Below are positions 30-41,440 of a DNA stretch of 41,440 nucleotides, in pieces. The DNA is from a virus. Positions within the stretch are counted from its first letter, which is position 1, and each line of letters opens with the position of its first letter. The stretch spans positions 1 through 41,440 of the IMG/VR virus record IMGVR_UViG_3300021141_000319. One strand, given 5' to 3'. Below the pieces are notes generated by a model that did no database searches, was not told the origin of the DNA, and saw only the letters and a program-made list of their open reading frames with translations. The position numbers were made by a program, and so were the translations under genes.

Positions 30-98
30 GGCTCATATTGTAATGCCTAGTAGGTGTCGCTACGCGACGACACGCCGATGACTGGTAGGATCTCTAGT
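30..98. other. Short intergenic gap, probably divergent regulatory DNA
   Basis: This 69-bp stretch separates the probable leftward start at 29 from the rightward peptidase gene at 99. It is the only place upstream of the left operon where a promoter could sit, unless the operon is read from late transcription across the joined ends. No convincing -35/-10 pair is visible. Confidence 0.3.
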
Positions 99-656
99 AT
101 GACAACTATCGCGGCGCTTGAAGGTATTGATTACGCAGTGTTCGTTGCTGACTCACAGATTACAGAGGACAACCTAGTAACGTTAGCAACGAGTACGCCA
201 AAGATTGTTGAGGTTGGCAAGTATCTCATCGGTATATCAGGTGATACCAGACCTGGTGACATACTCTCGTACAACTGGAAGCCACCGCTCTATCGTGGTG
301 AAGATCCTGTGCAATTTATGGGAAAGAAAGTTATACCCAGTATCAATCAAGCATTTACAGACAACAACTACGACTACAACAAGGTGGACAAAGATGGCGG
401 TTTTGATTATCTCGTGGCTTTTAACGGCAATGTCTTTAGGATTGCTTGTGATCTCTCTTTTTTCCAAAGTAATGTCGGAGCATACGCTATTGGTAGTGGT
501 GGGCAGTTTGCTCTTGGTTATTTGTATTCAAGCTGTAAGCCTGATATGGAGTTAGCCTACGCAAAGAGACACGCCCGTAAAGCAGTGGAGATTGCTTCGG
601 TACTTGACGCGAATACTGGTAAGCCCATACAGTTAGTAGTCCAAGAACGACTATAG
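99..656 (+). CDS. Proteasome-beta/HslV-like Ntn hydrolase (threonine peptidase)
   Basis: A 185-residue protein of HslV size. From the ATG at 99 it reads MTTIAAL, so removing Met exposes a Thr-1 nucleophile as in HslV and proteasome beta subunits. An upstream frame opens at a GTG at 54, but AGGA at 87-90 and the exposed Thr favour 99. Counting from that Thr, an Asp falls at 17 (VADSQ), a Lys at 34 close to HslV Lys33 (TPKI), a glycine-rich GISGDT follows, and near the C-terminal third is AIGSGGQFA, the HslV Ser125 region. These are the active-site residues of the family. No HslU/Mpa-type ATPase is encoded here, so it would act alone, with a host unfoldase, or as a decoy subunit. It heads the left operon, ten bases before an HTH gene. 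Confidence 0.82.
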   Translation: MTTIAALEGIDYAVFVADSQITEDNLVTLATSTPKIVEVGKYLIGISGDTRPGDILSYNWKPPLYRGEDPVQFMGKKVIPSINQAFTDNNYDYNKVDKDGGFDYLVAFNGNVFRIACDLSFFQSNVGAYAIGSGGQFALGYLYSSCKPDMELAYAKRHARKAVEIASVLDANTGKPIQLVVQERL

Positions 657-665
657 GAGGTAGCA

Positions 666-851
666 ATGAATACACAAGCAGACCGTTGGTTGAGAACAGA
701 AGAGGCAGCAGATTACTTATCTGTAAGCATTGGATTTTTGTACAATCGTGCAACAGAAATTGGAATACCACGTGCGAAGCTAGGTAAAGGGTATCGTTAT
801 CGTATTTCAGATCTTGATGCTTGGATGCTAGGTAAAGCAGAGGAACAGTAA
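666..851 (+). CDS. AlpA/excisionase-type small HTH DNA-binding protein
   Basis: 61 residues with the compact winged-HTH pattern of the AlpA/Xis (HTH_17, MerR-like) group: LRTEEAADYLSVS, then a recognition-helix stretch, then KLGKGYRYRISDLDAWM, the usual wing and C-terminal helix. Preceded by a good AGGAGG (656-661). In other phages such proteins are excisionases or small repressors. No integrase is visible in this window, so a transcriptional role is more likely. The stop overlaps the ATG of the next gene. Confidence 0.75.
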   Translation: MNTQADRWLRTEEAADYLSVSIGFLYNRATEIGIPRAKLGKGYRYRISDLDAWMLGKAEEQ

Positions 852-1137: not shown

Positions 1138-1220
1138 CAGCATTTCTTGCAGGTTTAGCTATTGGTATTATTCTTGGTAGAGCATTTGAATTATGGGTAG
1201 ATTGGAAGTACAAGAAGTGA
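1134..1220 (+). CDS. 28-residue putative membrane microprotein
   Basis: ATG at 1134 overlaps the previous TGA. The product begins MTAFLAGLAIGIILGRAF, one hydrophobic helix with glycine spacing, then a charged tail (DWKYKK). This is the look of a phage single-pass microprotein. Its end overlaps the start of the nuclease gene, which begins at ATG 1193 or GTG 1217. Confidence 0.5.
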   Translation: MTAFLAGLAIGIILGRAFELWVDWKYKK

Positions 1221-2158
1221 CTGACCCAAAGGAACTACTGCTGACTGCACTACGTGCAGGGGACGCGAAGCGTTCACGATCTACACAGGTACAGATTGGT
1301 CCATCAGAGGTAGGTGGCTGTCGCCGTAAGGTGTGGTACCGACTTAACGATCAACCTGAAACTAATGACAATGAACTCAAGCTTGCTGCTATTATGGGTA
1401 CTGCTATCCACGCAGAAATTGAACGAGCACTAGCAGATAATCCAGATGTGCTGATTGAAACCGAAGTTGAATACAACGGAATGAAAGCACACATTGACTG
1501 TTTCGTACCTAGTACCGGTGATGTGATTGACTGGAAGACAAGCAAGGTCCGGAACCTTTCTTACTTTCCAAGCAATCAGCAACGGTGGCAGGTGCAGCTA
1601 TACGGCTACCTCCTAGCTAACAACGGCTATGCGGTCAACCGAGTGTCACTGGTAGCAATTGCCAGGGACGGGGACGAAAGAGATGTCAAGGTTCACACCG
1701 AAGACTACGATGAGTCCATTGCACTAGAAGCACTCGGTTGGCTAGCGGCTGTTAAGGAAGCAAAGGAAGCACCAGCACCAGAGAAGGATGCAAGTTACTG
1801 TCAGCATTACTGTAAGTACTTTGACGCATCTGGTGAGATGGGATGCGTTGGTCTAAAAAAAGAACGTACGTCAGTCAGTGAAGTAATCATTGCTGACGCA
1901 GAGGTTGACAAGAACGCATTGCTATATCTACAGTTAGCAGAACAAATTAAAGAATTAGAAAAGCAACAGGATTCTTTGAAGGCATCCTTTGAAGGAGTAC
2001 TGGGTACTACTAATTCAGGTATCGAAGTGAGTTGGACAACTGTTAAAGGACGTGAGTCAGTTGACAGTACAGAGGTAGAAAAACTATTAGGGTTCGTCCC
2101 TAAGAAGGTAGGAGCTGAGAGTCAGCGACTATCAATCAAGCAAAGTGGAGGCAAGTAA
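1193..2158 (+). CDS. Cas4/RecB-like PD-(D/E)XK exonuclease
   Basis: About 320 residues. The N-terminal part has GPSEVGGCRRKVWY (Cys near residue 43), then GTAIHAEIE, the conserved His/Glu helix. The core shows AHIDCF and VIDWKTSK (Asp near 102, D-x-K near 113-115), followed by QVQLYGYLL, the QxxxY motif of RecB/Cas4 nucleases. Three Cys near 203-218 (CQHYCKYF to MGC), with Cys43, resemble the Fe-S cluster ligands of Cas4. The expected role is 5' end resection for recombination or genome processing. ATG 1193 is used here. GTG 1217, which overlaps the preceding TGA and follows a GGAAG, is an equally credible start. The next gene starts directly after the stop. Confidence 0.82.
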   Translation: MGRLEVQEVTDPKELLLTALRAGDAKRSRSTQVQIGPSEVGGCRRKVWYRLNDQPETNDNELKLAAIMGTAIHAEIERALADNPDVLIETEVEYNGMKAHIDCFVPSTGDVIDWKTSKVRNLSYFPSNQQRWQVQLYGYLLANNGYAVNRVSLVAIARDGDERDVKVHTEDYDESIALEALGWLAAVKEAKEAPAPEKDASYCQHYCKYFDASGEMGCVGLKKERTSVSEVIIADAEVDKNALLYLQLAEQIKELEKQQDSLKASFEGVLGTTNSGIEVSWTTVKGRESVDSTEVEKLLGFVPKKVGAESQRLSIKQSGGK

Positions 2159-2530: not shown

Positions 2531-2806
2531 ATGCGGGAGCCAAGTAAATACGAAGCTCCTAGTTGTGCAACAATCGGTGGTGACTTCTGGTTCCCCGATA
2601 ATGAATCTGGTATTCCTGGCGCATCTACAGTTGATGCCACCTTTGCAAAGAAGATTTGTAATAGGTGTCCTCATCGTAGAGAGTGCGCTGAGTGGGGTAT
2701 TAAGAATGAGGCTCACGGTATCTGGGGCGGTCTGACAATTAGAGATCGTCAACGCATCAGACGTGATCGAGGAATCAAAATCTATCAGGAGGACGACGTT
2801 GCTTAA
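2531..2806 (+). CDS. whiB: WhiB-family iron-sulfur transcription regulator
   Basis: 91 residues with the full WhiB signature: Cys12, then Cys43-x2-Cys46-x5-Cys52 (ICNRCPHRREC), then GIWGG at 63-67 and a basic tail (RDRQRIRRDRG). The four Cys bind a [4Fe-4S] cluster, and the GIWGG turn plus basic residues contact the sigma factor and DNA in characterised WhiB proteins. The family is confined to actinobacteria and their phages, so this is the best host marker in the window. A phage WhiB usually reprograms host sigma-A promoters. The ATG follows closely on the previous stop, and the gene overlaps the ATPase start. Confidence 0.92.
   Translation: MREPSKYEAPSCATIGGDFWFPDNESGIPGASTVDATFAKKICNRCPHRRECAEWGIKNEAHGIWGGLTIRDRQRIRRDRGIKIYQEDDVA
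2787..2792 (+). promoter_or_regulatory. Shine-Dalgarno AGGAGG that fixes a TTG start
   Basis: A perfect AGGAGG inside the end of whiB, six bases before TTG 2799. It selects TTG 2799 as the start of the ATPase gene over the in-frame GTG at 2763, which lacks such a site. Confidence 0.7.
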
Positions 2807-7135: not shown

Positions 7136-7549
7136 TTAAATAGTATCACAGATATTTTGTATGATCCACTCTACCACAGGTACAGCTACAGCATTACCCA
7201 TCTGCTTGTACCTGGTTGAGTCTGATTGTCCAGCAGTCCAATCATCAGGGAAACCCTGCAATCTTTCGCACTCTACTGGAGTTAAGCGGCGCACGTTAGT
7301 TGGAGTAGCAATGCCCGATACATTGTTTCCACCTGTACCCATACGTGATGTAAGTGTATTCATTGTGTCTCCTTGAACTCTAGCTCCGTCGTGGTAGTGA
7401 GGATGAAAGACAATGACTGTCGTTCGCACATCACCATTATCAAATGCGTTAAGCGTTGGCATTACTCCTCCTTCAATCCAAGTCTCGTAGTCATCCACAT
7501 TCTGTGCTCGTCTACTCTTGGTGAACCACAAGGTTCTCACTTCCTCCAC
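7136..7549 (-). CDS. C5 cytosine DNA methyltransferase, C-terminal half (motifs IX-X)
   Basis: Carries the late part of a Dcm-type enzyme: RRLTPVECERLQGFPDDW (motif IX region) and QMGNAVAVPVVEW (motif X). The upstream RRAQNVDDYETW to PTLNAFDNGDV stretch is typical of the part following the target-recognition domain. It overlaps the N-terminal half by 38 bases in another frame. Possible starts are GTG 7549, GTG 7540 or TTG 7531, the last placed ten bases after GGAGGA. Either a separate beta subunit, as in two-chain M.AquI, or the tail of one gene broken by a one-base shift. Confidence 0.72.
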   Translation of the reverse strand: MEEVRTLWFTKSRRAQNVDDYETWIEGGVMPTLNAFDNGDVRTTVIVFHPHYHDGARVQGDTMNTLTSRMGTGGNNVSGIATPTNVRRLTPVECERLQGFPDDWTAGQSDSTRYKQMGNAVAVPVVEWIIQNICDTI

Positions 7550-8324
7550 CTAGATCACCACCATTGGCACGCAATGTGCCAACTCCTTCTGTGTATCCAC
7601 CAAAGGATGATGAAGTCACAACTACATTATCTTCGGGTCTTTTGTAACCAGTAGCAGTAAGGGTTGTTACTCCTGGTGTGTACTTAGCGAAGCCTGTCTG
7701 ACCAAAGCTGCTTGGAGTTTCTCGGGTAAGGTCTTGCCCCTCTTGTTTGCTCGTCGAAGGATTCCTTCGCAAGCCTTCTGACTTAAAGAGTATTTCGGCA
7801 ACGCTTGAGTTAGGAGTACGTCTGCCAACGATGAAGACTCTACGCCTGCGCTGGGGTACTCCGAAGTGTTGAGCATCAAGCACCCTCCATCCAACAGAAT
7901 ACCCGAGGTCTGCCATCGTCCCGATGACGACTCCAAAATCTTTTCCTTCGTTACTGGATAGCAAACCAGGGACGTTTTCGATGATGAAGTATTCTGTTTG
8001 CGTTTCTTCCACAAGTCTTGCAATCTCCCAGAATAACCCGCTTCGTTCGCCAGCAAGACCAGCTCTTTTGCCAGCAACGCTGAGGTCTTGGCAGGGAAAT
8101 CCTCCTGTAATAATTCCTGTGCTTGGTGTAAATCCTGCATTGATTAGATCCTCTCCTTTAACTGTGGTCACATCTGTAAATTGTGTAGCGTCAGGAAAAT
8201 GCTGCGCCAATACCTGGTTGCAGTTCTTATCTATCTCAACCGAGGCTACTACCTTTACTCCTTGTCGCTGCATAGCAAGGTCAAAGCCACCAACGCCTGC
8301 AAACAAACTAACACCGGTCAGCAT
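7512..8324 (-). CDS. C5 cytosine DNA methyltransferase, N-terminal half (motifs I-VIII)
   Basis: 270 residues with motif I SLFAGVGGFDLA, motif IV GGFPCQDLS (catalytic Cys78), motif VI IIENVPG (116-118), motif VIII QRRRRVFIVG and part of the recognition domain. It lacks motifs IX and X, which the overlapping downstream frame supplies. The product would methylate cytosine at C5 in an unknown site, protecting phage DNA or changing promoter use. Its ATG shares one base with the upstream TGA (TGATG), so it is coupled to the transglycosylase-like gene. Overall similarity to full-length phage Dcm enzymes suggests a recent split. Confidence 0.85.
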   Translation of the reverse strand: MLTGVSLFAGVGGFDLAMQRQGVKVVASVEIDKNCNQVLAQHFPDATQFTDVTTVKGEDLINAGFTPSTGIITGGFPCQDLSVAGKRAGLAGERSGLFWEIARLVEETQTEYFIIENVPGLLSSNEGKDFGVVIGTMADLGYSVGWRVLDAQHFGVPQRRRRVFIVGRRTPNSSVAEILFKSEGLRRNPSTSKQEGQDLTRETPSSFGQTGFAKYTPGVTTLTATGYKRPEDNVVVTSSSFGGYTEGVGTLRANGGDLGGGSENLVVHQE

Positions 8325-13965: not shown

Positions 13966-15726
13966 TTGTTATCAGTCAAAGAAGTTGACGCTAAGCTCGC
14001 ACGCTTACGTACTCGCTCATCAGCGCGAGATCAACGTATGCGTGATGTGCTCTCGGTGCGTCAGGGAGATATCTCTAAGGTATATCCTGCAATGTTTTCA
14101 GAGGACTATCCAAAGCCTCTGGTTGCAAACTTCATTGACGTCGCAGCTCGTGACTTAGCAGAAGCGATGGCACCACTGCCATCCTTTAACTGCTCAGCAA
14201 CCAATATGGTTTCAGATGCAGCACGTAAAGCAGCAGATACTAGAACTCGTATTGCAAACTTTTATGTAACAAACTCTGACCTACAACTGCAGATGTACAC
14301 AGCAGCAGACTGGTATAACACCTACGGTCTTGGTATTGGTATGGTTGAGATGGACTTTGAGGACAACAACCCTCGCATCCGTATGCTTAACCCATTCGGT
14401 ACCTACCCAGAGTTAGATCGTTATGGTCGCGTATTATCTGTCACACAGGTAATTGTTACCGATGCAGAGACATTAGCTGCACAGTACCCAGAGTATTACG
14501 ATTTAATTCTAGGTAAGAACCAGTACGCTCTTTCTTCTCCTTACATCTCAATGGTCAAGTACCACGACAAAGAACAAGATTTGCTGTACTTGCCAGAACG
14601 TAAGAATTTAGTTCTATCACGCACACCTAACATCTTAGGTAAGGCAATGGCATCTGTCGTAATGCGTTCATCCCTAGATGGTGAAGCGCGTGGACAGTTT
14701 GATGATGTTCTATCTGTACAGCTTGCTCGTGCTCGTTTTGCAGTATTGCAGATCCAAGCAGCAGAAAAATCCATCCAAGCACCTATTGCTATTCCACAGG
14801 ATGTGCAAGAGTTGGCACTTGGACCAGATGCAATTATGCGTTCTGCAAACCCACAAGGTATTCGTCGTGTTCCACTAGAGCTACCACCTGGAGTCTTCGC
14901 TGAATCCGGTGTGTTAGAACGCGAACTTCGTCTTGGTGCTCGTTATCCTGAATCTCGTTCAGGAGATATCAGTGCATCAGTAGTTACTGGTCGTGGTGTG
15001 CAAGCACTACAGGCTGGCTTTGATACACAGATCAAATCAGCGCAAGCACAGTTTGCTCGTATGTTCCAAGAACTTATCTCAGTTTGCTTTGAAGCAGATG
15101 AGAAAGTATTTGGTGGCATTCCAAAAACCATCAAGGGTTCAGATGATGGAACACCTTACGTTCTAAAGTACACACCATCTCGTGACATTAAGGGTGAGTA
15201 CGGCGTAGATGTACGCTACGGAATTATGTCTGGTATGGATCCAAACCGTGCCATCATTGCTTTACTACAAATGCGCTCAGACAAGCTCGTATCTCGTGAC
15301 TATGTACGTCGTGAGATTCCAATGGACTTGAATGTTACGCAGGAGGAACAACGTGTTGATATCGAAGAAATGCGCGATTCTTTGCGCGTGGCTGTTGCTC
15401 AGTATGCTCAAGCCATTCCTGCCCTTGCAGCGCAAGGCCAAGACCCTATTGAGATTATCACCCGCATTGCATCTGTTATCCAGGGTCGGCAAAAGGGCCA
15501 ATCGCTAGAGAGCACAATCGAAAAAGCATTTACACCAGAACCACCACCTCCAGCCCAAGAGATGCCACCTATGGCACCAGGTATGGAACAACAACTTCCA
15601 GCGGCAGGTGCGGCCCCCGCCCCAGCCTCAGCGCAACCTCCACAAGAACAAGGTGGTATGGCCCCTGCTGCTGGTCAACGTCCAGATATAGCCCAACTAC
15701 TAGCTGGTATCACCGGCGCAGCATAA
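13966..15726 (+). CDS. Portal protein
   Basis: 586 residues from a TTG with AAGGA upstream. Position right after terminase and size fit. The N-terminal helical part (FIDVAARDLAEAMAPLPSF), TAADWYNTYGLGIGMVEMDF and the LNPFGTYPELD loop are typical of portals of podovirus-like phages. ARYPESRSGDISASVVTGRGV and LQAGFDTQIKSAQAQFARM fit the stem and long helix. The last 60 residues are Pro/Ala/Gln/Met-rich and likely disordered. It forms the ring through which DNA enters and leaves. Confidence 0.85.
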   Translation: MLSVKEVDAKLARLRTRSSARDQRMRDVLSVRQGDISKVYPAMFSEDYPKPLVANFIDVAARDLAEAMAPLPSFNCSATNMVSDAARKAADTRTRIANFYVTNSDLQLQMYTAADWYNTYGLGIGMVEMDFEDNNPRIRMLNPFGTYPELDRYGRVLSVTQVIVTDAETLAAQYPEYYDLILGKNQYALSSPYISMVKYHDKEQDLLYLPERKNLVLSRTPNILGKAMASVVMRSSLDGEARGQFDDVLSVQLARARFAVLQIQAAEKSIQAPIAIPQDVQELALGPDAIMRSANPQGIRRVPLELPPGVFAESGVLERELRLGARYPESRSGDISASVVTGRGVQALQAGFDTQIKSAQAQFARMFQELISVCFEADEKVFGGIPKTIKGSDDGTPYVLKYTPSRDIKGEYGVDVRYGIMSGMDPNRAIIALLQMRSDKLVSRDYVRREIPMDLNVTQEEQRVDIEEMRDSLRVAVAQYAQAIPALAAQGQDPIEIITRIASVIQGRQKGQSLESTIEKAFTPEPPPPAQEMPPMAPGMEQQLPAAGAAPAPASAQPPQEQGGMAPAAGQRPDIAQLLAGITGAA

Positions 15727-41102: not shown

Positions 41103-41123
41103 CCCATAGCGCGAGGCAAACAG

Positions 41124-41159
41124 GAGGTCGGTCCCTACGGGGACCGGCCTTCTTTTTTT
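41124..41159 (+). terminator. Rho-independent terminator of the late operon
   Basis: Stem of about 11 pairs (GGTCGGTCCC with GGGACCGGCC, loop TACG at 41136-41139) followed by TTCTTTTTTT. Typical intrinsic terminator 21 bases after the last lysis gene, facing the stop of the leftward zinc-ribbon gene. Confidence 0.9.
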
Positions 41160-41440
41160 ATGCCATTTTGTCGGCAGGGCAAGGGATTGTTACTAGGTTC
41201 CCACAGTTAACACAGGTTGCATCTAAGAAGTACCAGACTAACTCGTAGTCTTCAAAGGAGGCCATAACACTAAAGACTTGTGAGCCACACGGACACACGT
41301 GAAGTGGTCCTAAACCCCGCAGATCGGTTCCAAAAGGCTCAGGAAGGGTACTCCTGCGCCATCTAAACGATGGCAGGGTTGGTAGACGGAACCGCAGGGT
41401 TACTGTACGGTTGCTACTGTCGCGCCCATTGAGGGCGCCC
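41158..41440 (-). CDS. Zinc-ribbon protein, incomplete at the window edge
   Basis: 93 codons are open from the window end to TAA 41160-41158. HVCPCGSQVF and CVNCGNLVTIPC give C-x-C and C-x2-C-x7-C metal sites. The N-terminal part (RTVTLRFRLPTLPSFRWRRS) is basic/beta-like. No start lies in frame near the edge inside the window except a late GTG (before CPCGS) and ATG. If the ends are joined, the frame reaches GTG at position 29. The product would be about 100 residues, on its own in orientation, convergent with the late operon. A small nucleic-acid-binding or regulatory protein is likely. Confidence 0.65.
   Translation of the reverse strand, partial: GALNGRDSSNRTVTLRFRLPTLPSFRWRRSTLPEPFGTDLRGLGPLHVCPCGSQVFSVMASFEDYELVWYFLDATCVNCGNLVTIPCPADKMA
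41422..41438. repeat. Inverted repeat at the right end
   Basis: GCGCCC-attga-GGGCGC, six pairs with a five-base loop, overlaps the right nine-base repeat. May be part of a cohesive-end/terminase site or simply a GC-rich palindrome within the gene. Confidence 0.4.
41432..41440. repeat. Right copy of 9-bp terminal direct repeat
   Basis: agggcgccc identical to positions 1-9. See the left copy. Confidence 0.6.

Follow-up and report, generated by a model that had tools for sequence, protein, structure and literature searches.

Peptidase locus and genome

The window analysed here is the whole stretch of 41,440 nucleotides from a virus (IMG/VR record IMGVR_UViG_3300021141_000319), and the features that bear on the argument are the following.

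54–73, no strand: palindrome GTGTCG-CTACGCGA-CGACAC, possible operator or hairpin, overlapping the expected -35 region
86–91, plus strand: TAGGAT, a -10-like hexamer 7 nt before the ATG, candidate leaderless promoter
99–656, plus strand: proteasome-like Ntn threonine peptidase of group I (BPH-like), 185 aa (Pfam, PHROG_1040, conservation, profile and fold matches)
666–851, plus strand: HTH_17 protein, the next gene after the peptidase, detected in only 3/80 close relatives
1193–2158, plus strand: Cas4-like nuclease, conserved downstream neighbour (79/80 loci)
2531–2806, plus strand: WhiB-like regulator, actinophage marker (76/80 loci)
13966–15726, plus strand: portal protein, 50–52% identical to homologues matching phrog_104
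41122–41153, plus strand: strong intrinsic terminator with a 14-pair stem and T-run, at the end of the operon before

The product of ORF 99–656 begins MTTIAALEG. We rejected a 200-aa reading from a GTG start at 54, the in-frame upstream extension of which differs in length between relatives, and took the antisense ORFs at 237–467 and 487–870 as chance. That the gene heads its operon, as had been predicted, is supported by the terminator at 41122–41153 together with the promoter-like box just before the ATG. The palindrome at 54–73, a possible operator or RNA hairpin, is kept in most window-type relatives with paired changes (GTCGC/GCGAC versus GTTGC/GCAAC) and variable spacing; it is followed by a nearly invariant CGACACGCCG, and the window has a single occurrence of the full 14-base motif GCGACGACACGCCG. 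A possible small zinc-ribbon protein (CPCG...CVNCG; 41158–41439, minus strand), open towards the window edge, lies between the terminator and the peptidase gene, and a C-5 cytosine DNA methylase (7512–8324, minus strand) is encoded on the strand opposite to the early operon.

The window is probably a complete genome, circular or permuted, since relatives read straight from its end into its start and its first 9 bases repeat its last 9 (AGGGCGCCC at 1–9 and 41432–41440), a sequence present once at the junction in relatives. The terminases of the window and of Planktophila phage F5 share 46% identity, the GC contents are close (44.9% in the window, 44.7% in F5), and the two genomes are largely collinear. 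Phages F5 and E7 were isolated on Planktophila strain LanE-43, and WhiB is treated in the literature as an actinophage marker (PMC10202952); the main text of the paper describing both phages does not mention a proteasome homologue (PMC10202952). Phages of the window type are common in freshwater and appear to infect Actinobacteria, and we infer that the host order of this one is 'Ca. Nanopelagicales', for which a literature search turned up no paper on proteasomes. The peptidase behaves as a single-copy core gene, because each of the seven contigs longer than 28 kb that terminase alone recruited has it exactly once; four smaller terminase-recruited fragments (23–28 kb) lacking the gene are no evidence of absence.

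An intact proteasome-like peptidase

ORF 99–656 encodes a proteasome-like Ntn hydrolase with an intact catalytic site. The protein matches Pfam PF00227 (Proteasome; E 2.8e-12) and PHROG_1040, "peptidase HslV family" (E 4.6e-28), the latter also matched by 61/61 aligned family members. The AlphaFold model (pLDDT 89, pTM 0.85) has the Ntn beta-subunit fold on which the original prediction depended, and Foldseek against the PDB places Thiobacillus BPH at the top (E 1.7e-11, TM 0.77), ahead of HslV and 20S beta subunits; a profile of the family likewise ranks BPH first, aligned over its full length (E 4e-12). The Pfam, PHROG_1040 and Foldseek E-values, taken with purifying selection on the gene among close relatives (median dN/dS 0.07), exclude chance.

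With Thr2 of the ORF counted as residue 1, the protein has Thr1, Asp17, Lys34 (the Lys33 equivalent), Gly47, GSGG at 131–134 and DANTG at 169–173, so the N-terminal Thr, Asp17, the Lys at 33–34 and the AIGSGG loop first read from the sequence are all present. They are also conserved. The gene was found in 80 IMG/VR relatives, and across these and the window (81 close sequences) the named residues are invariant, apart from A/S changes and one G/N change within DANTG; among family members of less than 75% identity to one another, all 54 keep Asp17, the Lys33 equivalent and both loop glycines; 50 have Thr as residue 1 and the other 4 have Ser. A catalytically dead relative was rejected on this ground, and a defence-system protein was rejected for want of a PADLOC match. 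The protein has the compact build of the group I homologues: four helices are predicted, including one at 70–88, there is no C-terminal extension, and Thr directly follows Met, leaving no propeptide. After helix 2 comes a long, acidic pore loop, a segment of net charge -3 (-4 in BPH).

A DNA-level search of phages gave no match. In a maximum-likelihood tree of the proteins, which has very long branches and in which only the starred splits are reliable, a starred clade (98/95) unites the window protein with its counterparts from Actinomycetia phage DSL-LC01, Planktophila phage F5 and Microbacterium phage Pumpernickel. Tree tests of the window group with the F5-type group join the two at 73/94, a split that is unstarred and comes with a long-branch warning. 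BPH lies among betaproteobacterial proteins, apart from the actinophage clade, and another clade holds homologues from proteobacterial and Moorella phages, Myxococcota and rhizobial plasmids. A homologue from a MAG labelled Gammaproteobacteria nests among the actinophage-type proteins, and its contig may be a misbinned phage; homologues on Paraburkholderia and Rhizobium conjugative plasmids are annotated as hypothetical proteins and lie close to transposase genes. Aeromonas phage 2L372X carries two proteasome homologues in tandem (114931–115482, and 115500 across the origin to 23), of 183 aa and about 139 aa, the latter PPH-looking; both keep Thr1, Asp and Lys, and a mixed ring of the two is possible.

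Gene contexts and candidate roles

The peptidase gene occurs in three arrangements, compared here over the best 80 loci per scan for each type, which are not random samples of nature. In the window type the Cas4-like nuclease lies downstream in 79/80 loci and WhiB 1.3–2.2 kb downstream in 76/80; in the DSL-LC01 type WhiB follows at 17–1156 bp in 59/80. In the F5 type, by contrast with the window type, in which it opens the replication operon, the gene sits directly behind the portal gene, identified by its match to phrog_104, which ends just upstream in 80/80 loci, with the terminase further up in 61/80. The upstream regions also differ: of the 49 distinct window-type regions, 47 have TANNNT 6–7 nt ahead of the ATG (shuffled sequences average 1.4, maximum 5) and just 5 have a Shine-Dalgarno-like sequence, against 3/49 and 24/49, respectively, for F5-type genes, whose pattern is as would be expected for a gene internal to an operon. 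The window-type pattern is the signature of leaderless genes, which is reported to be common in Actinobacteria (PMC3160421), and the window peptidase transcript looks leaderless. The suggestion that the peptidase could act early therefore fits the window group, by the operon head and the promoter-like box, but neither the F5-type sister group nor the family as a whole.

These contexts bear on the possibility that the enzyme serves to process a phage protein, such as one of the head, the scaffold or the virion interior, and is expressed from a late operon in some phages and an early one in others. The F5-type position, portal-adjacent throughout and between portal and capsid, is near that usual for a prohead protease, and F5 is otherwise collinear with the window; a role in cutting a phage protein, raised at the outset, gains some weight because the gene adjoins the portal in the sister phages. 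The F5 capsid gene, however, lies about 9 kb downstream of the peptidase gene, the window group has the gene far from the head genes rather than between portal and capsid, and in other phages the neighbours of the relatives are nucleotide-metabolism or regulatory genes. The position in the early operon, as in the window group, speaks against virion-protein processing as the only role, and we consider this explanation unlikely.

Alternatively, one could envision the peptidase docking on a host AAA+ unfoldase (ClpX, ClpC or the proteasomal ATPase) and redirecting host protein degradation. The absence of an encoded partner ATPase, noted in the original prediction, is borne out: with E. coli HslU, ClpX and Lon as tblastn queries nothing was found in the window, while bacterial hslVU loci scored as positive controls, and the only plausible Walker-A ORFs are those of a DnaB-like helicase and TerL. 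The related HslV needs an ATPase and the phage has none of its own; both points speak for such docking, as does, in the window group, the gene's place first in its operon with its own promoter-like box. The pore loop, however, is acidic like that of the unfoldase-free BPH and not basic like that of HslV (PMC5777263), and the sister phages keep the gene in the head module. A host unfoldase could serve the window peptidase, but hijack or poisoning of host degradation finds no support here, and we regard this explanation as a little less probable again than processing.

Least probable, and in our view quite doubtful, is a specialised, non-degradative transferase, ligase or amidohydrolase on the proteasome fold, for which connectase, a ligase, shows the scaffold to be capable (PMC8665760), BPH offers a relative with no measurable peptidase activity (PMC5777263) and thymidylate or ribonucleotide reductase genes occur close to several of the distant phage homologues, but against which stand the compact four-helix ring-peptidase layout, all four helices being predicted where connectase lacks the first pair, and the failure of the nucleotide-gene neighbourhood in F5-type phages. 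That neighbourhood recurs for SuperGirl/Bas29 and four more loci (ribonucleotide reductase, thymidylate synthase or kinase, ThyX, PhoH) as a plain co-occurrence.

We favour a self-assembling, ATPase-independent BPH-like peptidase, a core gene of its phage family with a narrow range of phage or host substrates, and put the chance that this reading is right at about even. Translation would start at Met-Thr-Thr on a seemingly leaderless transcript; removal of Met by the methionine aminopeptidase of the host should leave Thr1 exposed, so that no propeptide would be needed. The subunits would then assemble into a closed homo-oligomeric ring, with the active sites inside and the acidic pore loop at the entrance, which would act, in the course of infection and without a dedicated unfoldase, on a few phage or host proteins that are unfolded or specifically recognised. 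Because BPH is inert on standard substrates (PMC5777263), activity of the window peptidase cannot be assumed; the phage enzyme may be selective in the way that BPH is. Among the three roles first put forward (forming its own ring, cutting a phage protein, taking over host degradation), the ring is, by analogy with BPH, the best supported.

A more far-reaching version, which we offer as speculation and would not expect to hold in full, is that the ATPase-independent ring is core to widespread freshwater actinophages and has one specific phage or host target, its gene having relocated within the phage family, between the head module (late) and the early operon, and gained a leaderless promoter and possibly an operator. 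If true, this would be the first physiological role for a BPH-like proteasome homologue. The switch of context between portal-adjacent gene and early-operon head narrows the question, as retention of the protein does not depend on which module drives it, and tractable relatives exist in Planktophila phages E7 and F5 (host LanE-43) and in the E. coli K-12 phage SuperGirl/Bas29 (gene bas29_0065).

Comparison with known proteasome homologues

The original description of the protein as proteasome/HslV-like was right in its first half and imprecise in its second. HslV of E. coli HslVU shares with the window peptidase the fold, the catalytic residues, the TT start and the GSGG loop; yet HslV models score the window protein at 18.8 bits against a cut-off of 157.75 and at 19.7 against 137, and the HslV pore region is basic (Arg86/Arg89/Lys90 cluster; PMC5777263) where that of the window peptidase is acidic, a comparison for which the HslV portion was aligned by hand. 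HslV proper was thus rejected, the scores being far below its cut-offs and the genome having no hslU. A 20S proteasome beta subunit was likewise set aside, as the genome encodes one PF00227 protein only, and so no alpha partner, and the propeptide is missing; so was PPH, which is about 140 aa and lacks helix H2, where the window protein has 185 aa and a predicted helix at 70–88.

By sequence, fold, missing propeptide and long acidic pore loop, the window peptidase is closest to BPH, a propeptide-free double heptamer that binds epoxomicin, has no known unfoldase and is inert on standard substrates (PMC5777263). BPH (PDB 5OVS, 5OVU) is the top PDB match by profile and by fold alike, and both proteins have Thr1/Asp17/Lys and lack a partner ATPase; they differ in that identity is about 21%, and in that BPH belongs to a betaproteobacterial clade and the window peptidase to a phage-borne actinophage clade. 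The BPH ring is known (PMC5777263), and that of the window peptidase is predicted from it by analogy.

The family itself is already known, as PHROG_1040, a label that is annotation only and whose members spread over several proteasome-homologue groups, and from the phage-borne PPH, AAH and CPH of Fuchs, Alva and Lupas (2021), who described these as lacking AAA+ partners or informative gene context (PMC8665760). AAH, PPH and CPH share with the window peptidase the compact group I layout, carriage by phages and the lack of an AAA+ partner, and no Actinobacteria-specific phage encoding AAH was found in that study (PMC8665760). What is new is an actinophage clade of homologues, assigned at the level of group I, together with the occurrence of a homologue in Planktophila phages E7 and F5, both cultivated, and two gene contexts in otherwise collinear genomes.
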